A DNA stretch of 64,000 nt from Flavobacterium sp. 1 (lineage in GTDB: Bacteria; Bacteroidota; Bacteroidia; Flavobacteriales; Flavobacteriaceae). The stretch covers positions 1,240,001 to 1,304,000 of the forward strand of contig NZ_PGER01000001.1 of assembly GCF_002797935.1 (NCBI RefSeq), given 5' to 3'. Each line of letters begins with the position of its first letter. The stretch's first letter is position 1. The notes beneath the pieces were generated by a model. It was not told where the DNA came from. It did no database searches and was given only the letters and a program-made list of their open reading frames with translations. A program made the position numbers and the translations under genes. This document shows, piece after piece, positions 5,226 through 36,276 of the stretch.

Positions 5226-8200
5226 ATGGAAAACACATCTTTGGCTGTGATTAAACTAGAAGTAATTGATAACTTCAGATATATTGAAAAAATCGGAGAG
5301 GGTGGTTGCGGATTGGTTTTTAAGGCGGAACAAATTAGTACAGGTAAATTTGTTGCAATAAAAACATTAAAGATTCACGGAGGTATAACAGAACATAAGA
5401 AAAAGCAACAATTGGCTCGTTTTGAGCGAGAAACCCAATTGTGTTCTGAAATATATCACCCCAACATTGTACAGCTTCTTGACAAAGGATGCTCAGATAG
5501 TGGAGAACCTTATGCTGTATTTGAATATGTACATGGAGAAACCTTAAATTCGTATATTCTACGTAACAAGTATCTTTCGGCTTCCGATATGGCAAACATA
5601 ATGGGACAAGTGCTTGATGGTTTGGTTTGCGCCCATAATAAAGGAATCGTTCACAGGGATTTGAAGCCTCATAATATTATGGTTTCAAAATGGGGTTCTA
5701 AAAATCATGTAAAGATTTTAGATTTTGGTATTGGAGCTTTTTTCCAAGATTTCCGTTCTATAGATTATCAGGATTTAACTGTTGAACAAGACGTATTAGG
5801 GACTCCTACATATAGTGCGCCTGAGCAATTGAGGGGAGAACCGTCTACTGTAAAATCAGATTTGTATTCGTGGGGACTTATCGTTATTGAGTGTTTAACC
5901 GGTAAACCGGTGATGGGTGGAGCCTCTATTGCCGAAGTGTTCCAGAAACAGTTAATGGCTTCGAGTGTACCGTTACCTCCTTCGATTGTTGGTCATCCCT
6001 TGGCGAGTTTACTAAGAAGGGTTTTGGAGAAAAACCCTAGGAATAGGGCAGAAAACGCGCAAACTGTTTTGGAAGAGTTTGACCAAATTAATTTCAATAC
6101 CTTGATAGGGGACATTGATAGGCAAAAGAATGTTATTGCCGATTATCAGGATTTTACTGTTGCCGATGAGATAGTTTGGAGTGGTGTGACTGCAGCTCGA
6201 AAACAAATGACAATACTTTGTCTCAAGCTCAATTTAATAGTTTCTCGAGGAATGCATTTGGATTTGGAGACTTTGGATACTATTCAAAAGGATCAGTTGA
6301 ACTTGTGCAAAGATATTGCGATTCGATATGGTGGATATGTTTCGGAAACCTTTATGAATAATTTGGCAGTTTATTTTGGTTATCCTGAATCAAGTGACAC
6401 TGATGCAAGAAGGGCTGGAAGAACGGCATTAGAAATAGCTACGGCAGTAAAAAAAAGGAATGCTCTATTGATGGAGCAGCAGGGTATTAGCATAGATATT
6501 CGAGTGGGCTTGCACACAGGAACAGTTTTAGTCCAACGGAATAATTTACCAGAGGGAAGTGTACCCAATATGGCCTTTGATTTGGTGTACATGGCTGCTT
6601 CGGGATCTGTACTGGTTAGTGCGCCTGCCAAAAAATTATTGGAACCCTATTTGGAGTTTGAGAGCGTTGATGAAATTCGGTTTTCGAATGGCTGTGAAAC
6701 GATAGAAACGTATCAGTTAGTTGGAGAGCGGCAAACAGAAGCTTTATCTTCTTTGCGACCATGGAGTGCTGATAAGGAAATGATTGGTAGGGATGCCGAA
6801 AAAAAAACGATACTCCAATTATGGCTGAATAGTATGGAAAGCTATAGTTCTGTACTTATAAGTGGACAGGCAGGAATAGGGAAGTCAAAATTGGTTTATG
6901 AAGTAAAAAAGGAAATACGTTCTGTTGATGGAAGGGTCAGTGAATGTCGTTGTTTCCCAGAACATCAGAATAATGCGTTATATCCTTTCCTACATATGCT
7001 TCGAAATCATTGTGGAATCTCAGGAATTGAGGATAAAGACATAGCGATTTCTCGCTTGAAAGTAGTATTAGAGAAAACAGGATGTTCGGTAGATAAAACC
7101 TTGGCTCTTTTGTGTTCATGGTTGTCAATTCCGATACCTAAAGAATGTGCTGTAAGTCAAGCATCACCTGAAAAACAAAAACAACTTTTATTTCAAACTT
7201 TAAAGCAATGTTTACTCTTTTTGGATAATGAAAAATCCTTCCTCTTAGTAGTCGAAGATTTGCATTGGTTGGATCAAACTAGTGCAGACTTCATTGAATA
7301 TATTTTATCAGACACAAATGAAGGTCATTATTTATTATTAATGACAGCAAGACCTGAATTTGTGAACCCTTGGAACTTGGATTGCCTTTCTCAGATAAAT
7401 ATTGAAATTCTTTCGGAAGATTCTGTTAAGCTTTTAGTAGAAGGAAGTCTGGACGGAAAATCTGTTAGTGAAAAAGCGTTGCTATACATTTTCGAAAGAG
7501 CAGACGGCATTCCTCTTTATGTAGAAGAATTGACCCGTATGTTGGTTGACCAAAATTACGTTGTGTTGGACAATGGGGGATATGATTTGGTGGAAGATAT
7601 TGATACCAAGTTAATACCTTCGACTCTTCAAGATTTATTGAATGCAAGATTAGATCGATTGAGCTTAGCGAAAGAAACAGCACAATTAGCAGCTGTTATT
7701 GGAAGAGAATTTAGTTATGAGTTACTTATTAAGGCTTCAGCAAAAGACGAAGCAACAGTGCAAAGTGATTTAAATTTGTTACTGAATTCGGATTTAGTCT
7801 ATCGTCAGCGAAGAGTTAAAGGGGAAAATTACATTTTTCGTCACGCTTTAATTCGTGATGCTACTTATGATGGAATGGTAAGTACCAATCGAAAAGTGGT
7901 TCATAAAAATATAGCCGAAACTTTAGAGAAAAATTGTAATATACAAAAAGACATCTCTTTACAAATTATAGCATTTCATTACGAACAAGCTACGGATTTT
8001 GAAAAATCTCAGAAATATTGGTTCGATTCAGCATTAGTAAGTCGTCAAAAAACGGGTGCGTATTTGGATACAGTCTTCTATTTGTCTAAGGCTCTGAATT
8101 ATGTTGAATCCATTCAAAATGAAAATGAAAAAGTGGAATCAAAAATAAGGATCTATAATTTGCTTGGAGAAACTCAGCTGTATACCAGTGGATTTACATC

Positions 8201-8303
8201 TGCCGATGTTGCACTCTCTTTATATTGTTTTCTTTTTTTCTATTTTCTTGTCAAAATCAAAACAATAAATCAGAAATCATTGGTCGCTCTGGTCAACTCG
8301 TAG
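5226..8303 (+). CDS. Ser/Thr protein kinase / degenerate cyclase / STAND ATPase fusion, C-terminally truncated
   Basis: Large cytoplasmic signalling protein. The kinase domain (about 17-290) has the glycine loop GEGGCG, the VAIK lysine, HRD near 142 and DFG near 166, so it should be active. Residues about 325-500 resemble a class III nucleotide cyclase (VGLHTGTV), but the metal-binding Asp positions are missing (LCLKLNLIV, NNLAVYFG). An AAA/STAND ATPase follows, with Walker A GQAGIGKS near 546-553 and Walker B LLVVEDLHWLD near 672-682, then helical repeats. The order matches kinase/cyclase fusion proteins found in some RiPP (TOMM) loci, but no RiPP genes are nearby. The helical repeat stops mid-repeat near residue 995; the last residues read through the next gene's signal peptide, so the end is not native. 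Confidence 0.85.
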   Translation: MENTSLAVIKLEVIDNFRYIEKIGEGGCGLVFKAEQISTGKFVAIKTLKIHGGITEHKKKQQLARFERETQLCSEIYHPNIVQLLDKGCSDSGEPYAVFEYVHGETLNSYILRNKYLSASDMANIMGQVLDGLVCAHNKGIVHRDLKPHNIMVSKWGSKNHVKILDFGIGAFFQDFRSIDYQDLTVEQDVLGTPTYSAPEQLRGEPSTVKSDLYSWGLIVIECLTGKPVMGGASIAEVFQKQLMASSVPLPPSIVGHPLASLLRRVLEKNPRNRAENAQTVLEEFDQINFNTLIGDIDRQKNVIADYQDFTVADEIVWSGVTAARKQMTILCLKLNLIVSRGMHLDLETLDTIQKDQLNLCKDIAIRYGGYVSETFMNNLAVYFGYPESSDTDARRAGRTALEIATAVKKRNALLMEQQGISIDIRVGLHTGTVLVQRNNLPEGSVPNMAFDLVYMAASGSVLVSAPAKKLLEPYLEFESVDEIRFSNGCETIETYQLVGERQTEALSSLRPWSADKEMIGRDAEKKTILQLWLNSMESYSSVLISGQAGIGKSKLVYEVKKEIRSVDGRVSECRCFPEHQNNALYPFLHMLRNHCGISGIEDKDIAISRLKVVLEKTGCSVDKTLALLCSWLSIPIPKECAVSQASPEKQKQLLFQTLKQCLLFLDNEKSFLLVVEDLHWLDQTSADFIEYILSDTNEGHYLLLMTARPEFVNPWNLDCLSQINIEILSEDSVKLLVEGSLDGKSVSEKALLYIFERADGIPLYVEELTRMLVDQNYVVLDNGGYDLVEDIDTKLIPSTLQDLLNARLDRLSLAKETAQLAAVIGREFSYELLIKASAKDEATVQSDLNLLLNSDLVYRQRRVKGENYIFRHALIRDATYDGMVSTNRKVVHKNIAETLEKNCNIQKDISLQIIAFHYEQATDFEKSQKYWFDSALVSRQKTGAYLDTVFYLSKALNYVESIQNENEKVESKIRIYNLLGETQLYTSGFTSADVALSLYCFLFFYFLVKIKTINQKSLVALVNS

Positions 8304-9901
8304 AAGAAGTTACCCCGGAATTATATGATTCTTTACCGTCATTTGTTTTTAAACAAAATGGAATGTATGCTACAGGCCTGTTCTGTGTAGATCTGGATAA
8401 TAATGGTTATATGGATGTTGTTAATGCTAATGGAAATGATATGTGTCCGCAACCATTAACTATTTATAACAATTGGGGTAAAGAAACCGGAGAGCCTTAT
8501 TATTTACCAAATTATGCAGATGATAAAGGTTTTAATACTAGAATTAAAATTGGAGATTTGAATAAAGATGGTTGGCAAGATATAGTTATGATTTCTGTGT
8601 TTAAAAGGGCGCAGTTTAATCCAGAATCTTTTACTTCCCAAAGTGATTTAAATGGATCAGATCTTTATAAATCCGGCAGCGTAAAAGTATATATGAATAA
8701 TAGGGGGATTATTCCGAGTACAGCTACCTATGAAATCGAACTAGGTACATTTCCGTTCGATATTGATTTAGGGGACTTTGATGCTGATGGAGATTTAGAC
8801 TTAGCTGTTGCAAACATTGGACAACTTAATGAAAATGGTGTGTTTGTCCCTGCGAAATCTGTAATTTGTCTAAATGAAAATGGAATACTAAAAAGCAAAA
8901 AAATCTGGGAGACCGATTACTCCTTTAATGCGATGTCAATAAAATTTGCTGATCTTAATCTTGATGGATTATTAGATCTCACAATTGGTCATTCTCCTGG
9001 TCATCCGGGAGAAAAAAGAATTAAAACCAATGAGGCAATAAGTGTGTTTTATGGAAAATTAGATAGTAATAATGAAATTGGGATTGACACCAATGTGGGG
9101 TGGTCTTTTGGGTTTGGCAGCTCTTTAGCAGCGGTAACATTAAATATTGGTCTGTTAAGAGAAGGAGAGAATAGTGTTCCTAATAAAAAGGATGTTATTT
9201 TTTTAGTAGGGATACAAGGAGTTAAAGAGGATGAAGAGGCTTTTAAATTAGTGAATAGTCATAGAATGTTAAATTCAAGTAATTGTTTTGGGGAGGATTT
9301 TTATGTGATTGGATGCCAAGAAAAAAAGATCTATTGGAAAACTGATGTAACTGATATGAATGTAAACAAACCGTCGTTTTCTTCTATGGGAGATCTCAAT
9401 AATGATGGTTATGCAGATCTAGTATTGGGATTCTTCAAAATGGAAGAAGGGAATTTGAATGATGGAGCACCATTTTTTATATTCGAAGGAAAGCCTGGGG
9501 ATGCCAATGGATCAAGATTCAAACAAATATATCGTTCCAAGGCACATGGAGTTAATCAGGAAATATTCTTGGGGTATGCACGTAAATACACTAAAGTGAA
9601 ATCGAATAAAATAGAACAAAGGAGGTTTACTCAGGTATTTTCTCCTAATAGGCCTGTGGTAACATTACCATGCAATGTTGTATTATCAATAGATAGTGTA
9701 AAAGTCGATAAAGTGATGCAAAATTATGGAGCTTATAGCTGGAGTTATGCCACCAATGTGTTGACACTAAATAATAGTTTCAAGCATGCTGTTGAGGTGG
9801 AAGTTGTTTATAAAACGCCTTTGAAAAAGGATATTTATATTGCTTATTGGAATGCCAATATAGGAAATGCAATTTATTACAGCCAATATTCTAAGCCTTG
9901 A
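8225..9901 (+). CDS. FG-GAP/VCBS-repeat lipoprotein with damaged 5' end
   Basis: Secreted beta-propeller-like protein with repeated Asp-rich calcium-binding turns (DLDNNGYMD, DLNKDGWQD, DFDADGDLD, DLNLDGLLD, DLNNDGYAD). Such repeats serve adhesion or carbohydrate binding at the cell surface. The N-terminus holds a lipobox-like FLFSCQNQN. However, only a TTG at 8225 is available as a start, it leaves just eight residues before the Cys, and there is no positively charged n-region. Upstream the frame runs into kinase sequence without a Met. The real start has therefore probably been deleted, and expression or export may be lost. The gene overlaps the kinase frame by 79 bp in a different frame. 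Confidence 0.75.
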   Translation: MFSFFLFSCQNQNNKSEIIGRSGQLVEEVTPELYDSLPSFVFKQNGMYATGLFCVDLDNNGYMDVVNANGNDMCPQPLTIYNNWGKETGEPYYLPNYADDKGFNTRIKIGDLNKDGWQDIVMISVFKRAQFNPESFTSQSDLNGSDLYKSGSVKVYMNNRGIIPSTATYEIELGTFPFDIDLGDFDADGDLDLAVANIGQLNENGVFVPAKSVICLNENGILKSKKIWETDYSFNAMSIKFADLNLDGLLDLTIGHSPGHPGEKRIKTNEAISVFYGKLDSNNEIGIDTNVGWSFGFGSSLAAVTLNIGLLREGENSVPNKKDVIFLVGIQGVKEDEEAFKLVNSHRMLNSSNCFGEDFYVIGCQEKKIYWKTDVTDMNVNKPSFSSMGDLNNDGYADLVLGFFKMEEGNLNDGAPFFIFEGKPGDANGSRFKQIYRSKAHGVNQEIFLGYARKYTKVKSNKIEQRRFTQVFSPNRPVVTLPCNVVLSIDSVKVDKVMQNYGAYSWSYATNVLTLNNSFKHAVEVEVVYKTPLKKDIYIAYWNANIGNAIYYSQYSKP

Positions 9902-10038: not shown

Positions 10039-11559
10039 ATGAAAAAAGTATCAGTAGAAGAAAATGATTCTCGTTTCCCAAGTTTTAAGCAAGGTTTTAA
10101 TCAACGTTGGTATGCTAATAATTGCAATGTGGTTTACCTGTGCGAAAATGCGGATGGCACTGCTGCTGCATTAGAGGAAGCAATAAGTCGTTTTGATAAG
10201 GATGTGAAAGTAAAATGCGGAGGGCATTGTTATGAAAATTTTGTTTTCAACGAAGTCACCAAAGCTATTTTGGATGTAACCTCCCTAGACGACGCAGGGT
10301 ATGATGAAGATCGCGGATATTACTTAGGTGCAGGAGGAAACAATTGGGAAGCATTTAAAAGTTTATTCCGAGATTTTGGTAAAGTTTTACCCGCTGGATC
10401 TTGCTATTCAGTAGGATTGGGAGGTCATATTTGCGGAGGCGGATATGGACTTTTATCACGTCTGAATGGACTTACGGTTGATTGGTTAACAGGGGTTGAA
10501 TTGGTGGTAAAAGACAAGAATGATCAACCGGCACGTACAATATATGTTTCAAAAGAGTCCATAGGTGATGAACAAGATTTGTTTTGGGCGCATTGTGGTG
10601 GTGGTGGCGGTAATTTTGGCGTGATCACGAAATACTATTTTAAAAATCTTCCAGACTCGCCTGAATGTGCTTTTCTGACCACTTACGCTTTTCAGTGGAA
10701 ACATTTATCCGCGAAAACACTTTACAAACTCCTCGAATGGTACGAGGGATTTTCATTAAAAAAAGACAACTGGAATCAATTTGGTTTATTTAAACTCAAC
10801 CATAAAGCAAATGGGGAGATTCATCTGGTGATTCAAACGGCAACGGAGAATAGCGATGAAGCATTAAAAAGAAATAAAGCCCTCATTGAAAAGCAGTCCA
10901 AAGAGTTAACTGAAATTTGTGAGCACCAAATTGCTAGAAGACCCATTTTTGGACATGGAGCGTACTTCCCTTCCGAGATGTCTACAAATACAATTTTATA
11001 TACTTATTATGAAGCAACTCAAACCTTGAATGGCTCCGGAGTGAACCAACGAGGAAAATACAAGTCGGCCTATATGCGTAAGAAGTTTAGTAAGCGGGAT
11101 GCCAAAGTGATTTTTAAGCAACTGCAAAAAGTACCAGAAGGACTCACCAAAACAGACATGACGCAAAGTTTGTTGCAAGTTGATTCCTATAGCGGAAAAA
11201 TAAATAATGTAGATTCAAATGCCACAGCCATTGCACAGCGGGATTCAATATTCAAACTTCAGTTTCAAACCTATTGGACATCTGAAAAAGATGATCCAAA
11301 ATATTTAAGTTGGATTCGCGAGTTCTATGGTGCCGTGTACAAAAAGACAGGAGGTACTCCTAACCCAAAATTAGACCCCACAAATAATGTAGACGGCTGC
11401 TATTACAATTATCCCGACGCCGATTTAAATGAACTTGTAGGCAAACAAGGAGCTATGGAATTGTATTTCCTTGAAAATCTTGATCGTTTGAAAGCAGTGA
11501 AGCGCAGATGGGATCCGAATAATTACTTTAATAGTGAACAATCAATCCCTTTGATTTAA
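10039..11559 (+). CDS. BBE-type FAD-binding oxidoreductase, probably bicovalent flavin
   Basis: Flavin oxidase of the berberine bridge enzyme/hexose and chito-oligosaccharide oxidase type, 506 residues. The N-terminal FAD_binding_4 domain contains GGHCYEN, where H63 should carry the 8-alpha bond, and GSCYSVGLGGHICGGGYG, where C122 sits at the position of the 6-S-cysteinyl bond. The C-terminal BBE motif is present (YYNYPDADL, then RWDPNNYF and QSIP). Known relatives oxidise sugars or alkaloids and release hydrogen peroxide. There is no signal peptide, so the protein is cytoplasmic or exported by an unconventional route. A chitinase gene lies 1.8 kb downstream, which fits oxidation of a chitin-derived sugar, but the substrate is inferred only. 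Confidence 0.85.
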   Translation: MKKVSVEENDSRFPSFKQGFNQRWYANNCNVVYLCENADGTAAALEEAISRFDKDVKVKCGGHCYENFVFNEVTKAILDVTSLDDAGYDEDRGYYLGAGGNNWEAFKSLFRDFGKVLPAGSCYSVGLGGHICGGGYGLLSRLNGLTVDWLTGVELVVKDKNDQPARTIYVSKESIGDEQDLFWAHCGGGGGNFGVITKYYFKNLPDSPECAFLTTYAFQWKHLSAKTLYKLLEWYEGFSLKKDNWNQFGLFKLNHKANGEIHLVIQTATENSDEALKRNKALIEKQSKELTEICEHQIARRPIFGHGAYFPSEMSTNTILYTYYEATQTLNGSGVNQRGKYKSAYMRKKFSKRDAKVIFKQLQKVPEGLTKTDMTQSLLQVDSYSGKINNVDSNATAIAQRDSIFKLQFQTYWTSEKDDPKYLSWIREFYGAVYKKTGGTPNPKLDPTNNVDGCYYNYPDADLNELVGKQGAMELYFLENLDRLKAVKRRWDPNNYFNSEQSIPLI

Positions 11560-11729
11560 TTGAAGCGAATTTTGTAGCAACTACTTTTTTTGCGATTCTA
11601 TGAAAGAGCAAAAGTGGCGAGTTTCTCCTTGAATTCGATTTAATTGACAGAAGTTTAAAAAGTTCCAATTTGGAGGCCCAAGAGTTTTTGTAAAGCCTAT
11701 TAGAAAAACAATCTTTAATTTTTAATCAC

Positions 11730-11762
11730 AAAAAGCATCTCTTTTTTAAGGAGGTGCTTTTT
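11730..11762 (+). terminator. Rho-independent terminator after the flavin oxidase gene
   Basis: A 12-bp stem (AAAAAGCATCTC with GAGGTGCTTTTT, one G-T pair) and a 9-base loop, ending in T. It lies 170 bp after the stop codon and just before leader module A. Weaker but related hairpins precede modules B and C. Confidence 0.7.
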
Positions 11763-11826
11763 GCTTTTTAAAATAGACCAATATCTCATGGTATAAGGTC
11801 TTATCACTTGATTTCAACTGCGTGAA

Positions 11827-12124
11827 ATACCGTGATATATTTTTATCGATTTCTTCTCTCTACATTTATAATGTCAAACTAAAGGGTGTAAGATGTAGCG
11901 TATCAATCCGATATTCTGTAAATTATAAAATGGATTTGATAGTCTGACTTTGGCCAAAGTAGGAATGATAAATTGTCAATAAATAAATGGAATCAACACC
12001 AAGAGTATCTGAAATAAGCGTATTCCAAAAAGTAAAAATAAGAATAGATTTATGGATTTGGAATGAATGCGTTTATTGGCATAAAATAATAAAATAGTGG
12101 AGCCAGAAACCACTTAAATAAACG
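11827..12124 (+). promoter_or_regulatory. Leader module A: promoter plus about 300-nt conserved 5' leader
   Basis: First of three related modules (A 11827-12124, B 12965-13266, C 14345-14530). A promoter-like box TCTACATTTA (TAnnTTTA, near the Bacteroidota -7 consensus) is followed by GTCAAA, a conserved TTCTGTAA, the 14-bp perfect palindrome ACTTTGGCCAAAGT at 11947-11960, an AACACCAAG block, AGATTTATGGATT, and a stem-loop AGTGG-9-CCACT at 12096-12114 running into TTAAATAAACG. The start codon of the next gene is 64 bases further on. No ORF in this copy is shared with the other copies, so conservation is more likely at DNA or RNA level. Function as operator or RNA regulator is inferred. Confidence 0.6.
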
Positions 12125-12178
12125 ACTTGATCTGCACAGGAAAATTGCAGGGAGTATTAAATTTTAAAAATAAATATT

Positions 12179-12859
12179 ATGGAAATCAAAGATTATGTAA
12201 AAAGTGAAGTGTTAAGTAGCTTCATATCAAATCCGACGTTGGTACAGAGAACTAGCATAGGTAATGTTATGCCTATGCTTGATCGTGTTATTTTTAGTAT
12301 TGAAAGACCAGATTCAGGCACTAATCAAGGTGGTATTGCGTATATTAAGGAAATCACCACGGGTAAACTGATAAAGATGATTAGTATCCCAGGGATGAAT
12401 ACTCCGGTAACCGGATTGTCTATACAAAGTGATGAGTTGAATTTTGAAACTAAATCATATGTACTAGAGTATGGACCCGACCATATCGATAAGGGAGTAA
12501 AATCTATTGCGGCAACAGTGGATATCATTCAAGCTACTCCGATGAATTATCAACCATCAACATGTAATGCATTTAACAACTCTGATACCCATATACAGAG
12601 TAGATATCATCTTCCGAAAGAAATATTACAAGATGGAAACGTCGTGATGATATATGCAGTCGAAGGTGATAAATTATTATCTAGCGACAAAGCAATAGCA
12701 AATAAGATTTTTACGCTTTCAAAAGTTTCTCCTAACCATGGCACCGCGCTTTTGGAAAACTACCCAGAAGGTACATTTAAGAGGGGGAAAACATACTCGG
12801 TTTGCTTAAATGTTTATAGTTGGGCACGTCAAATTGCGGGATACCAATTCGTGTATTAA
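12179..12859 (+). CDS. Unknown 226-residue protein under leader module A
   Basis: I do not recognise a family. The 226 residues are rich in beta-strand-like segments, with no signal peptide, no lipobox and no membrane helix. It starts with MEIKDYVKSE and contains only two cysteines. The start ATG follows an AT-rich stretch without a classic Shine-Dalgarno site, as is usual in Bacteroidota. It shares its long leader with the chitinase gene downstream and has its own terminator, so the two are separate transcripts probably under the same control. A cytoplasmic or unconventionally released binding protein would fit, but no function can be assigned. Confidence 0.7.
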   Translation: MEIKDYVKSEVLSSFISNPTLVQRTSIGNVMPMLDRVIFSIERPDSGTNQGGIAYIKEITTGKLIKMISIPGMNTPVTGLSIQSDELNFETKSYVLEYGPDHIDKGVKSIAATVDIIQATPMNYQPSTCNAFNNSDTHIQSRYHLPKEILQDGNVVMIYAVEGDKLLSSDKAIANKIFTLSKVSPNHGTALLENYPEGTFKRGKTYSVCLNVYSWARQIAGYQFVY

Positions 12860-12916
12860 TTTTTTTAGCAAGTTCAAGCACTTGTAGCTTCTAACTTGTA
12901 CCTGTAAATAGAATAA

Positions 12917-12946
12917 AAAAAGCAACCCGTAAAAAGGTTGCTTTTT
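12917..12946 (+). terminator. Rho-independent terminator after the unknown gene
   Basis: Perfect 11-bp stem AAAAAGCAACC / GGTTGCTTTTT with an 8-base loop. It separates the unknown gene from leader module B. Confidence 0.8.
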
Positions 12947-12964
12947 CCTGTCATTCCCACCCAT

Positions 12965-13266
12965 TGAAATAGGATGAAATATTTTTCCTGATTTTTTTTC
13001 TTTTTCTAGATTTATCGTGTCAAATAAAGGATGCAATACATGGACAATCAATACGCTATTCTGTAATATGCAAAAAGAGTTTGAAAATCTGACTTCGGCC
13101 GAAGAAAGAAAAAATAAGTTGTTGATTAACGAATTATTACAACACCAAGCGTACTTGGAATAAGATATTCTGAAAAGTAAAATTAAGTACGAATTTATGG
13201 ATTGGGATATATCGTTGCTAGTTTTCTAAATTTTATGCAGTGGAGCAGAACCCACTTAAATAAACG
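12965..13266 (+). promoter_or_regulatory. Leader module B upstream of the chitinase gene
   Basis: Second copy of the leader. Same order of blocks: GAAATATTTTT, TCTAGATTTA, GTCAAA, TTCTGTAA, the palindrome CTTCGGCCGAAG (13093-13104), AACACCAAG, GAATTTATGGATT, and the stem-loop AGTGG-8-CCACT (13239-13256) followed by TTAAATAAACG. Relative to copy A the palindrome changes T-A to C-G on both arms, so symmetry is kept. This copy alone contains two short ORFs: 13031-13066 (11 codons) and 13068-13163 (31 codons, MQKEFENLTSAEE...). A further hairpin CCTAAAA / TTTTAGG sits just before the chitinase ribosome binding region. Confidence 0.6.
13068..13163 (+). other. Short ORF (31 codons) inside leader module B
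   Basis: Starts one base after the stop codon of an 11-codon ORF (13031-13066), an arrangement that would allow translational coupling. The peptide is charged and helix-prone (EERKNKLLINELLQHQ). The matching positions in modules A and C keep traces of the same reading (FDSLT and IENITS) but are closed by stops. It may therefore be a true leader peptide, or the last intact relic of an ancestral coding sequence shared by the three modules. Confidence 0.3.
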
Positions 13267-13317
13267 GGGCAGATTCCTAAAAGCCTTATTTTTTTTAGGA
13301 GAACAAATAAATTACTT

Positions 13318-14193
13318 ATGGATAATTCACTCGTAGTAGGTTACCTTGAAAGTTGGTCGCCTAATCAGATTACTTTTACACAAGCCGCAAAAAGTGGTTA
13401 TAACACTATTGTAATGGCTTTTGGAACCATTAATGGGACGACAATCGGGATTTCGGATGGAAATTTTAATCCCTCTCCAACTCCCCAAAAATTAAAAGAG
13501 GATATCAAAAATGCCAAAGCAAATGGAGCGAAACACATACTTTTCTCTGTTGGAGGCGAAAGCAATACGTATAATCCAAAAGGGTCGGCAGACGATGTTG
13601 CACAGGCATTGGTAGCGTATCTCCAAGAGTATGGGTTTACAGGAGTTGATTTCGATTTAGAAATAAACACCGATGGAAATTACTTAGATCAATTATGTGC
13701 CGGTATTCAAAAAAGAGACCCTTCATTAATTATTACGGCAGCTCCTCAACTCAACCAAGCTGATCATGCATCTGATCTGTTCCTTGTCTCCACAGGAAAC
13801 TATCGCATTTACGACAAAGCGATTCAAAATAATCGTTTTAATTACCTCTTTATCCAAGCGTACAACAATGGATGGCCATCCATTAATGGCTATTCAGAAA
13901 TGAATGTCCCTTTTATTTCTGCCGCCTTCAACAACTTGAAGAAAAGCATTCCTGCTCAAACAAAAATTGTCATAGGTGAACCTGCCACTAAAGATGCCGC
14001 GGGTAGTTACAGCGTATTTAATGGACCTAATGCAGGACCTAATATTTATTCGTTAATGGCAGATCAGTACAAAGCAATTTCTAATGACCCCCAGTTTGGT
14101 GGAGTTATGACTTGGGATATCAATTGGGATGCAAAAAATAATTACCAATTTGTAAAAGCAATGAATCATGTGATTGTGCCGAATTTGGTATAA
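13318..14193 (+). CDS. Glycoside hydrolase family 18 chitinase without export signal
   Basis: Endo-acting chitinase-like (beta/alpha)8 barrel of 291 residues, essentially only the catalytic domain. The substrate-binding SVGG motif is at 77-80, the catalytic DFDLE at 111-115 with E115 as proton donor, and QAYNN at 180-184. The first Asp of the usual DxxDxDxE motif is Thr. The protein begins directly with the first strand (MDNSLVVGYLESW) and has neither a signal peptide nor a type IX C-terminal domain, which is odd for an enzyme acting on an extracellular polymer. Leader module B lies upstream and a weaker hairpin terminator follows at 14301-14327. It might act on imported oligosaccharides or be delivered by a contractile or lysis-based route. 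Confidence 0.9.
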   Translation: MDNSLVVGYLESWSPNQITFTQAAKSGYNTIVMAFGTINGTTIGISDGNFNPSPTPQKLKEDIKNAKANGAKHILFSVGGESNTYNPKGSADDVAQALVAYLQEYGFTGVDFDLEINTDGNYLDQLCAGIQKRDPSLIITAAPQLNQADHASDLFLVSTGNYRIYDKAIQNNRFNYLFIQAYNNGWPSINGYSEMNVPFISAAFNNLKKSIPAQTKIVIGEPATKDAAGSYSVFNGPNAGPNIYSLMADQYKAISNDPQFGGVMTWDINWDAKNNYQFVKAMNHVIVPNLV

Positions 14194-14300
14194 AAGCATA
14201 ACGAAGCAAGTAAAATTGACACTATGAATGCCTGATTTCGGGTAAAAAACAAGTAGCTGCGCATGGCTTGATTGCTATAAAACACGACCATGTTTATTAC

Positions 14301-14327
14301 AAAAGCAATCTGTAAAGGGTTGCTTTT
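14301..14327 (+). terminator. Hairpin terminator after the chitinase gene
   Basis: Stem AAAAGCAA / TTGCTTTT with an 11-base loop and a run of T. It stands in the same place relative to leader C as the other terminators do relative to leaders A and B. Confidence 0.6.
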
Positions 14328-14344
14328 TTTGCTTTTTCATCCCT

Positions 14345-14530
14345 ATTGAAATAGGATGAAATATTTTTTCTGATTGCTTATTTCTAAATTTACACTATCA
14401 AGTAAGGGATGTAATTTATGGTCTATAAATTTGGTATGCTGTAAGTTGTAAAATAAATTGAAAATATAACTTCGGTCGTAGGAACAAATAAGTAAATAGT
14501 TTGTCAATAAATAACCAATGCCAATTATTA
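14345..14530 (+). promoter_or_regulatory. Leader module C, shortened
   Basis: Third copy of the leader: GAAATATTTTTTCTGATT, then TCTAAATTTA and TATCAA, then CTGTAA and a damaged palindrome CTTCGGTCGTAG (14470-14481). The downstream half with the AGTGG/CCACT stem-loop is missing, and a start codon follows at 14552. It drives only a gene remnant, so the palindrome may have decayed after the gene was lost. Confidence 0.5.
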
Positions 14531-14551
14531 ACAATTTAATTAAAAAAAATA

Positions 14552-14596
14552 ATGGAACACAATCATTCTGATCACGACCAGGGCATTCGCTTTTAA
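14552..14596 (+). pseudogene. 5' remnant of a gene interrupted by an insertion sequence
   Basis: An ATG after leader C opens a frame for MEHNHSDHD; sequence resembling an ISAs1-type terminus (CAGGGC) begins at about 14579 and a stop follows at 14594. The His/Asp-rich start could be the beginning of a third gene of this regulon. Nothing more of it is seen in the window. Confidence 0.4.
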
Positions 14597-15190
14597 ACTT
14601 TCAATATTAATTCTCTGTAAGTGCTGTCAGTAAAGGCTTTGAGACGTTTTCTGTTTTTTGATTTTGGAAAGGTTTTTTCTTGATCCAACATCGTGTTTGC
14701 TAATTTTGCAATTAGATTGGCATTTTCGATAGCTGTTTGGTTTCGTTTGGCTTGATTGTCTTCTCTGAAAATGACATCTAAATTCCAATGTAAATTATTT
14801 TCAATTGTCCAATGTGATCGTATGGATTCGTTTAGAAGTCCAGCATCAGCGGGCAATGAACTAATGTAATACCTTGTACTTGTGGTTTCTTTTTCTGTTT
14901 TTTTGAAGTAGATTTTTGACTCAATTTTCACGATGATTCTCAAATCTTTCCATTTATGAGCATTATCTATGAATTCTAAATCGCTAATAACGATACACTT
15001 ACGAACTTCAACTCGACCATGTCCACAATCTTCAGTTGTGTCTATTTCTACTGCTTTTTTAACAGCAAATGAATCCTCAATGTTTTCTAATAGTGTTTTT
15101 TGATTGTTTTTAACTTGTAAAATATAATCCGCTTCTTGCTCTCTAATTTTCTTTGCAATTTCTCTCTGACAACCCATTGCATCAATCATA
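14593..15190 (-). mobile_element. ISAs1-family transposase remnant, N-terminus lost
   Basis: C-terminal two thirds of an ISAs1-type DDE transposase (H-repeat protein type). Visible are IDAMGCQREIAKKI with a catalytic Asp, the ADYILQVKNNQ strand, HWTIENNLHW with the Glu region, and the usual RxREDN-like segment followed by the NTxLDQEK tail. The frame stays open to 15228, but transposase-like sequence ends near 15190, where histidine-kinase sequence on the other strand begins. The element is therefore cut by a deletion and cannot move by itself. Its right terminus probably starts with CAGGGC at 14579. It interrupts the third leader-controlled gene. Confidence 0.8.
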
Positions 15191-15192
15191 TA

Positions 15193-15417
15193 ACCCAGCT
15201 CAAAGAAATGATTTTTATGATTTCTCATAAAGTAAGACTGCCCATTGCAAATATTATAGGCCTATCGGATGCTCTTGATGAGTCAATAAATAACCCAACG
15301 GAATTAAAAAAAATAGTCGATTATATGAAAGAATCCGCAATTGATCTTGAAGAGTTTACGCAAGAGTTGAATCATTTTATTCAAAACTCAAAAGATAAAG
15401 CAGAAAATGAAATTTAG
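15193..15417 (+). pseudogene. Histidine-kinase C-terminal fragment
   Basis: About 75 codons that read like a HisKA dimerisation segment (MISHKVRLPIANIIGL, with the phospho-acceptor His) and its second helix, ending at a natural stop. It lacks both an N-terminal sensor part and an ATPase domain. The frame continues upstream only into antisense transposase sequence, so the start is not its own. It is the 3' end of a PAS/HisKA-type gene left after the deletion that also cut the IS. The stretch 15418-15611 holds no gene, but contains the first copy of an 18-bp repeat (15560-15577). Confidence 0.65.
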
Positions 15418-36042: not shown

Positions 36043-36138
36043 GCGGTTTTTTAATCTATCGTCTCCAATGGTTGAAACCGCTGTCTATGGTAAATTGTCG
36101 TTGTTTTTTATTTCCAAAATAGAAACTTTGCTGGCTCT

Positions 36139-36215
36139 TTTAGCCCCGATAGAAGTGAAAATCCTTTTTATTTTTCCTTTAAAAATAAAAAGATTGAAAC
36201 GGATAGCGGGAACCC
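36139..36215 (+). repeat. REP-like element, copy 1 (GCCCCGATAG...GGATAGCGGG)
   Basis: Starts AGCCCCGATAGAAGTGAAA and ends ACGGATAGCGGGAA, with a 12-bp hairpin CTTTTTATTTTT / AAAAATAAAAAG between. Copy 2 is at 42121-42237. From memory, similar sequences are scattered through Flavobacterium genomes. It is non-coding; the short frame that covers it is a by-product. The rest of 35969-36310 holds two terminators. Confidence 0.7.
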
Positions 36216-36276
36216 ATACTTGCTAAAAAAGCCTATTGCTTCGCTCTTTGTTTTTTATATTGAAAATTTTTTAAGC

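Follow-up and report, generated by a model that had tools for sequence, protein, structure and literature searches.

Repeated leaders in Flavobacterium sp. 1 and a candidate DUF805-related RNA element that carries an H-type pseudoknot in one of them

Introduction

Three related modules, A (11827-12124), B (12965-13266) and C (14345-14530), follow one another within a 64,000-nt stretch of the genome of Flavobacterium sp. 1 (hereafter the window, to which all positions refer). A first-pass annotation had read them as ~300-nt leaders of three separate single-gene transcripts, possibly sharing a new regulator or RNA element. The question raised by this locus is whether the repeats form one regulatory unit and which part of them could act as RNA.

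Results

Extent and setting of the repeats

The repeats are genuine: blastn of leader A against the whole 5.35 Mb genome returned exactly three places, namely A itself, B (71% over 292 nt, E 7.5e-29) and C (69% over ~158 nt, E 3.4e-8). Our alignment agrees with the block order described before for all three, and the spacing in A and B was recovered as well, with the promoter-like box beginning 320 and 313 nt before the start codon, respectively (about 300 nt had been given), and the CCACT arm ending 64 and 61 nt upstream of the ATG. Terminator-like hairpins precede each module as annotated, that of B scoring on the minus strand only, and five were found in the scanned region compared with a mean of 1.8 in shuffles. 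A sigma-70 promoter scan, based on a model unfit for this phylum, gave no excess (11 versus 13.3 in shuffles). The transcript starts of A and B are predictions. Leader A may offer more than one, its internal TTTG marking another candidate promoter, proposed from the homologous region of genome G197. C ends ahead of the middle block, lacks the AGTGG/CCACT hairpin and is followed by no intact gene.

Table 1. Positions of the leader parts, flanking hairpins and genes at the locus
Feature	Position	Strand	Basis and details
Terminator-like hairpin 5' of leader A	11729..11763	+	terminator scan
5' domain, leader A	11827..11992	+	alignment; box TCTACATTTA 11859-11868; internal TTTG 11935-11938
Middle block, leader A	11994..12058	+	CAACACCAAG ... 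TATTC ... TTTATGGATT; also in B, G056, G197, G412
P1 hairpin and linker to AAACG, leader A	12096..12124	+	AGTGG 12096-12100 with CCACT 12110-12114; 5' half of DUF805-type element
H-type pseudoknot, leader A	12126..12151	+	search rule, shuffles, covariation; S1 CUUG 12126-12129 with CAGG 12137-12140; S2 (U)CUGCA 12131-12136 with UGCAG(G) 12146-12151; loop 3 AAAAU 12141-12145
Gene A, 226 aa	12179..12859	+	no Pfam match
Terminator-like hairpin 5' of leader B	12915..12948	.	terminator scan, minus-strand score only
5' domain, leader B	12965..13137	+	box TCTAGATTTA 13005-13014; internal TTTG 13080-13083
Middle block, leader B	13140..13203	+	alignment
DUF805-type element, leader B	13235..13305	+	36.9 bits; without pseudoknot insert; P1 13239-13243 with 13252-13256; second hairpin GGC 13268-13270 with GCC 13283-13285
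Gene B, 291 aa, glycoside hydrolase family 18 (PF00704)	13318..14193	+	Pfam
Terminator-like hairpin 5' of leader C	14301..14327	+	terminator scan
Leader C, 5' domain only	14345..14514	+	blastn, alignment; no middle block, no DUF805-type element
14-codon ORF remnant 3' of C	14552..14596	+	by eye; runs into transposase gene
Transposase gene (PF01609)	14593-15228	-	Pfam

A database search found five proteins of the gene A family, gene A included, and a scan of named genomes contributed no relative. A homologue of 37% identity with its own pseudoknot leader is present in G837, a genome of another family, and the reach of both searches is therefore limited. AlphaFold2 on the gene A product (five sequences) gave a mean pLDDT of 50.

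The 5' half and the middle block

The leaders are composite and do not constitute one 300-nt RNA. Searching 398 same-genus genomes with a model of the 5' half (R1) yielded strong matches of 120-160 bits only for the three copies in this genome and for G056, i.e. in 2 of the 398. All other matches were weak (~17-21 bits), and among these only G197 was backed by further evidence, the 5' half being diverged and partial in the orthologous pair G197/G412; a widespread 5' element was rejected on these grounds. Between the A and G056 orthologues, the leader is 81% identical, compared with 80% at four-fold sites of the upstream gene, and the intergenic sequence ahead of the leader, at 88%, exceeds it. 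The data do not support reading the whole leader as one regulatory unit. The middle block was also rejected as an RNA structure, RNAalifold on the 5' half and on full leaders giving weak results with positive, i.e. unfavourable, covariation terms; a hairpin around TATTC recurs, with too few changes to count. We consider the 5' half, comprising promoter region and upstream UTR, a local duplication whose function is less certain. In G197/G412, the region homologous to the leader contains a box of the TAnnTTTG promoter consensus, and the region resembles the promoters 5' of two other DUF805 elements in this genome.

A DUF805-type element at the 3' end

As judged from cmscan alignments and scores, leaders A and B end in a divergent relative of the DUF805/DUF805b clan (CL00115), a candidate cis-regulatory RNA. 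Against the Rfam DUF805 model (RF03081), A scored 29.5 bits and the syntenic G056 leader 26.4 bits, with P1 and linker intact; together with B (Table 1), both lie under the curated gathering score of 51.1 bits. The match of leader A (E 0.005 genome-wide) would not convince by itself; 11 of 14 control genomes contain DUF805 matches at E <= 10, one of which exceeds the cut-off. Like DUF805 RNA, both leaders carry P1 (GTGGAG..CCAC) and an A-rich linker ending in AAACG and lie just before start codons, and B additionally carries the GGC/GCC hairpin. The Rfam consensus consists of two simple hairpins without insert, whereas in leader A the linker is followed by an H-type pseudoknot and the second hairpin is gone. 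This hairpin with GAAAAGCC is present in B as the UAAAAGCC variant and absent from A, and B has no pseudoknot insert; the two neighbours therefore share P1 and linker only. A further hairpin in leader B, UCCUAAAA/UUUUAGGA (13275-13282 with 13293-13300, by eye), overlaps the 3' part of its DUF805-type element.

The linker TTAAATAAACG belongs to a widespread RNA element and is not specific to this locus. Within the alignment of A, B and G056, no stretch of invariant columns is longer than that of the P1-linker block (15 columns), a length reached by 133 of 5000 column shuffles. A model of the 3' element (R2), which also picks up ordinary DUF805 elements, matches 209 of the 398 genus genomes (E <= 0.01). 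The position relative to the gene is narrow: among 138 distinct clan elements having the usual 3' motif, 114 are followed by an ORF of at least 60 aa within 70 nt, and in 111 of these 14-25 nt separate the end of the motif from the start codon. DUF805b RNA (RF02914) is related in that the pseudoknot-form elements match its consensus of 35 nt at their 3' end, and differs in that it spans neither P1 nor pseudoknot; leader A is not among its listed matches. The shared RNA element proposed earlier holds for A and B at their 3' end; C does not possess this part, and the element is not wholly new because its clan is already in Rfam; what neither Rfam model contains is the pseudoknot of leader A.

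The DUF805 motif was reportedly first described by Weinberg et al. 2017. Our literature search found no paper under "DUF805 motif" or "DUF805b" and no function for this computed motif, papers on DUF805 together with RNA bearing unrelated titles.

The pseudoknot

None of 60 shuffles scored as well as the pseudoknot of leader A, in which the DUF805b hairpin, the usual next part after the pseudoknot, is missing. By the same search rule, the fold was found in 34 of 35 distinct elements, 29 of which were equalled by none of 60 dinucleotide shuffles. When elements from other families are included, 45 of 50 distinct insert cores contain it, built from 36 different S2 and 34 different S1 helices, and the rule finds no pseudoknot in the remaining five. 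The fold is present both in Flavobacterium and in further families of the class. S1 comprises 3-6 bp, S2 4-7 bp and loop 3 in 40 of 45 cases 3-7 nt.

Covariation was assessed on 43 sequences, five of them without the insert. Both-side changes were observed at 4/4 pairs of S2 (95.3% of cells paired) and at 3/4 pairs of S1 (81.9% paired), which lies outside the model used. The whole 16-pair structure, pseudoknot included, reached a covariation score of 0.364 compared with 0.136 in shuffles, none of 500 shuffles attaining this value, and sliding the structure by 1-3 columns gave at most 0.120. In a swap control, only 23 of 45 elements outscored 95% of the exchanged 3' halves, since many of these halves are alike. 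Elements with P1 and neither pseudoknot nor second hairpin also occur (L096, L098 and L099 at 1020).

Target genes

The pseudoknot forms precede genes for PixA (PF12306), MVL (PF12151, a mannan-binding lectin), RicinB (PF14200), DUF1842 (PF08896) and the family of gene A, and the ordinary DUF805 forms precede genes for GH18 (gene B), GH72, DUF1842 and rhodopsin (PF01036). Leader and gene often recur as units in tandem, single-gene arrays. The pseudoknot set comprises 54 distinct gene starts, of which only 3 reached the N-terminal hydropathy cut; most of these genes seem to have no obvious signal peptide, and their products would mostly not be exported. PixA proteins are described as stationary-phase inclusion body proteins (PMC9060813).

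Discussion

We propose a model in which A and B would each be transcribed singly from their own promoters, with the functional, DUF805-clan-related RNA confined to the final ~70-110 nt upstream of the start codon. P1 would be followed by the A-rich linker, the inserted H-type pseudoknot (in A and many relatives), and usually the GGC/GCC hairpin, after which an A-rich stretch without pairing would lead to the AUG. Located in the mRNA UTR of organisms without Shine-Dalgarno sequences, the element would set how translation starts, how long the mRNA lasts, or both, for a regulon of abundant proteins that are mostly not exported and often bind carbohydrates, and a putative trans-acting factor or ligand may recognise pseudoknot and P1. 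Such a translation- or stability-setting mRNA element is, with a probability of roughly 0.6, the best explanation overall. It builds on the family relation, the covarying pseudoknot, the start-codon spacing, the kinds of genes served and their tandem arrangement, as established here; we infer the action at translation or stability, the abundance of the regulon proteins in these organisms and the binding of some partner. Counting against it are the leader, not conserved beyond four-fold sites, the scores of A and B under the gathering threshold and the cores without pseudoknot. More tentatively, the pseudoknot form could constitute a distinct class of regulatory RNA in this bacterial class, bound by a ligand or protein of its own and inducing, as one regulon, a store made up of cytoplasmic lectins and inclusion-body proteins, with the tandem units as cassettes that place new genes under the same RNA control.

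For DUF805 RNA, these results add a covarying pseudoknot absent from the Rfam models and a common theme among the targets, namely lectin-like and inclusion-body proteins that are for the most part not exported and are frequently encoded in tandem single-gene units. Flavobacterium johnsoniae is described as lacking Shine-Dalgarno sequences, secondary structure tuning initiation there (PMC6847099). Structure and target theme together make the function testable in this laboratory organism and could show how such bacteria govern initiation of very abundant proteins.

Compact H-type pseudoknots with a ligand pocket are familiar from preQ1-I and SAM-II riboswitches, and the elements resemble these in having two interleaved helices close to the initiation region, with loops 1 and 2 short and loop 3 often rich in A. 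A metabolite or second-messenger riboswitch, in which such a pocket would gate initiation, would suit this geometry and the position just upstream of the start codon, but is unlikely: Rfam 15 scans gave no match to the preQ1-I and SAM-II models or to any other riboswitch family, even at E up to 1-5, where DUF805/DUF805b alone among the families hit coincide with the elements, the insert is optional and shows by eye no long invariant stretch that would mark a pocket, and no metabolic pathway evidently unites the genes that follow. An mRNA stabiliser without sensing, with P1 and pseudoknot shielding the 5' region from nucleases so that transcripts are long-lived, would accommodate the very diverse genes, some in families reported to be abundant elsewhere, such as PixA (PMC9060813) and rhodopsin. 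It would need neither the fixed position before the start codon nor so uniform a P1 and linker, and we consider it rather improbable.

That the region is instead regulatory DNA, i.e. a locally duplicated operator or promoter region for a transcription factor with RNA structures being secondary, draws on the 5' half being common to all modules and the sole part of C, on the promoter-like boxes and palindromic blocks and on the TAnnTTTG box of G197/G412. A purely transcriptional role of this repeated half is compatible with the data. As an account of the whole locus it is unlikely, leaving the compensatory changes in S1 and S2 and the narrow spacing unexplained and resting on a part far rarer in the genus than the element. 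Recent segmental duplication, named at the outset as the reading that would undo a regulatory role, may account for much of the 5' half, which is confined to this and a sister genome plus one diverged pair; the leader as a whole has diverged about as fast as four-fold sites. A functionless relic throughout is very unlikely, being contradicted for the 3' element, which spans the class with compensatory changes and retains its invariant P1-linker block in A, B and G056.

The leader as a composite

Leaders A, B and C proved real, as the first-pass annotation had described them, and blastn of the whole genome (complete, 5.35 Mb) found no further copies beyond these three. A and B are 71% identical. 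The gene behind leader A encodes a 226-aa protein without a Pfam match, whose family counts five proteins in a large database, itself included, and the gene behind leader B encodes a GH18 protein; downstream of leader C lie a 14-codon remnant and then a transposase gene. In the sister genome G056 the syntenic leader is 79% identical to A (blastn) and the same FAD-oxidase-type gene lies upstream in both loci. The gene after the orthologous leader differs between the two genomes, a 142-aa gene followed by a metallophosphatase standing behind it in G056.

The leader is a composite of three parts, a 5' half (i), a middle block (ii) and a 3' DUF805-type RNA (iii), and these are separable, since C consists of part (i) alone. 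With the 5'-half model, strong matches (120–160 bits) among 398 genomes of the genus were restricted to A, B, C and G056, the remaining matches among those listed scoring about 17–21 bits. The middle-block profile was built from A, B, G056 and G197 and searched within the collected loci only, G412 being the sole copy outside its building set; the diverged partial leaders of G197 and G412 are near-identical orthologues. In this pair the middle block lies downstream of a promoter-like TAnnTTTG box, and a TTTG inside both A and B aligns with this box, which gives two candidate transcription starts for gene A, about 300 and about 235 nt upstream.

Over its whole length the leader is 81% identical between A and the G056 orthologue, against 80% (150/188) at four-fold sites of the upstream gene and 88% in the intergenic sequence upstream of the leader, so that the leader as a whole shows no unusual constraint. 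The longest run invariant in A, B and G056, CCACTTAAATAAACG, covers 15 columns, a length reached by 133 of 5000 column shuffles, and falls in part (iii).

Coordinates and loci of the features discussed (window positions unless a locus or genome position is given; R2, model of the 3' element)
Feature	Position or locus	Remark
Part (i), 5' half	11827–11992 (A)	in A, B, C, G056
Part (ii), middle block		in A, B, G056, G197/G412
Part (iii), 3' part		DUF805-type RNA
Leader A locus	10039–14193	compared with G056:C2 (L112)
Leader C, remnant and transposase gene	14345–15228	transposase gene matches only later part of PF01609
Protein kinase with AAA domain	5226–8303	weak cyclase match
FG-GAP repeat ORF	8225–9901	overlaps kinase ORF by 79 nt
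Flavo-1 RNA (RF01705)	36138–36217, plus	81.3 bits; Rfam motif without known function
R2 places in window genome	A; B; 923 kb (two); 925 kb; 1.89 Mb; 5.0 Mb	925 kb: GH72 gene; 5.0 Mb: DUF1842 gene
PixA (PF12306)	L125, L211, L225	behind pseudoknot forms
Mannan-binding lectin (PF12151)	L104	behind pseudoknot form
Ricin-B lectin (PF14200)	L140	behind pseudoknot form
DUF1842	L212	behind pseudoknot form
Bacteriorhodopsin-like gene (PF01036)	L006 725–1447, minus	behind DUF805 element; in general set

A pseudoknot insert in the 3' element

Many of the matches confined to the hairpin P1 and the A-rich linker carry an insert that folds a-b-a'-b', as an H-type pseudoknot of the interleaved helices S1 and S2 (in A, in order: CUUG, UCUGCA, CAGG, AAAAU, UGCAGG). 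Some of them lack it: L095, L096, L098, L099 at 1020 and the second of the elements in L057. When a fixed rule was applied to 35 distinct elements drawn from R2 matches and earlier ones, it gave the fold in 34 and none in L142; of 60 dinucleotide shuffles per element, none reached the score in 29 elements and 1–4 did in 5. Widening the set to other genera and families, with L228 and L229 excluded beforehand, yielded 60 distinct inserts and 50 distinct cores, 45 of which fold; these folds draw on 36 different helices for S2 and 34 for S1. Four or more other families in the class are represented among them (G709; G673 and G745; G837; G851), and the 13 named records matching the pattern of the commonest form are all Flavobacterium. 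Swapping 3' halves between elements lowered the mean score from 23.2 to 11.4; since many 3' halves resemble each other, no more than 23 of the 45 elements scored above 95% of their swaps.

The best test of the pseudoknot is covariation in alignment A10, whose 43 distinct rows include 5 without the insert. S2 shows changes on both sides at all four pairs and S1, which was not built into the model, at three of four; for S1 a single register was used, whereas in some elements the helix is shifted by one. The 16-pair structure has 92.6% of cells paired against 77.7% in shuffles, and a covariation score of 0.364 against 0.136, reached by 0 of 500 shuffles, where A10 was fitted to S2 and the shuffles do not keep relatedness; slides of 1–3 columns score at most 0.120.

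Relation to DUF805 and distribution

A, B and G056 match DUF805 (RF03081) at 29.5, 36.9 and 26.4 bits (cmscan), none of them reaching the gathering score of 51.1. In the window genome three DUF805 matches exceed the cut-off, and a further two that are weaker, at E < 0.01, add to those of A and B; at a loose E ≤ 10, matches occur in 11 of 14 control genomes, one of them over cut-off. Elements with the insert are visible to the Rfam models only via the DUF805b end or weakly via DUF805. A has lost the DUF805b hairpin usual after the insert, and B has the hairpin and no insert.

R2, built from 12 elements, finds seven places in the window genome at E < 0.01. Within the genus, 209 of the 398 genomes have a match (E ≤ 0.01), as do 20 of 199 in the family draw and 72 of 247 in the class draw (both E ≤ 0.001; two and four, respectively, from the genus), counts that take in ordinary DUF805 elements without insert. 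Among the genus matches listed, by our own count at least 46 rows in at least 34 genomes span at least 103 nt, which suggests the insert form, the rows having been inspected in part.

In ordinary DUF805 elements (L006, L011, L169, L173 and others), one base in the P1 loop covaries with one in the CGGGG that follows; long-loop forms give C-G 17, U-A 4 and U-G 3 times, and a short form gives one A-U. The pattern matches only elements of that spacing. It passes over the common form with a short loop (GAGCAG with CGAGG), which cannot form the pair. This covariation suggests a second tertiary contact in the ordinary element, possibly a second pseudoknot. A flavobacterial transcriptome study reports new structured 5' elements (PMC9723704); a text search counted no mention of DUF805 in it.

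Position and genes behind the element

Among 138 distinct clan elements with the usual 3' motif, with insert or not, 114 have an ORF of at least 60 aa starting within 70 nt, in 111 cases 14–25 nt downstream of the motif, a count for which A and B lack the exact motif. Such a spacing keeps the initiation region clear, in agreement with the finding that Flavobacterium johnsoniae has no Shine-Dalgarno sequences and that structure close to the start tunes initiation there (PMC6847099). A mechanism read from the element's structure would be a proposal.

Besides the genes in the table, many small proteins of no known kind stand behind pseudoknot forms, and 18 of 30 proteins scanned against Pfam at E 0.01 had no match. 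PixA proteins are described as stationary-phase-associated inclusion body proteins (PMC9060813); upstream of the PixA gene at L216:1806 lies an element without the fold by the rule. In the pseudoknot set, whose 54 distinct gene starts include many that are orthologous to each other and one (L142) without the fold, 3 reached an N-terminal hydropathy cut, against 15 of 40 distinct starts in the general set, which contains some pseudoknot forms; since part of these 15 are DUF1842 proteins, the contrast is no clean measure of export.

The gene-A family is tied to the element across families: G837, from another GTDB family, has a 37% identical homologue with its own pseudoknot leader, whose S2 (UCCCG/CGGGA) differs from that of A. 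Tandem leader-plus-gene units as in A and B recur, with four R2 matches each in L210 and L211, six in L216 (two weak) and three in L097; these arrays hold three or more leader elements, most with their own gene behind.
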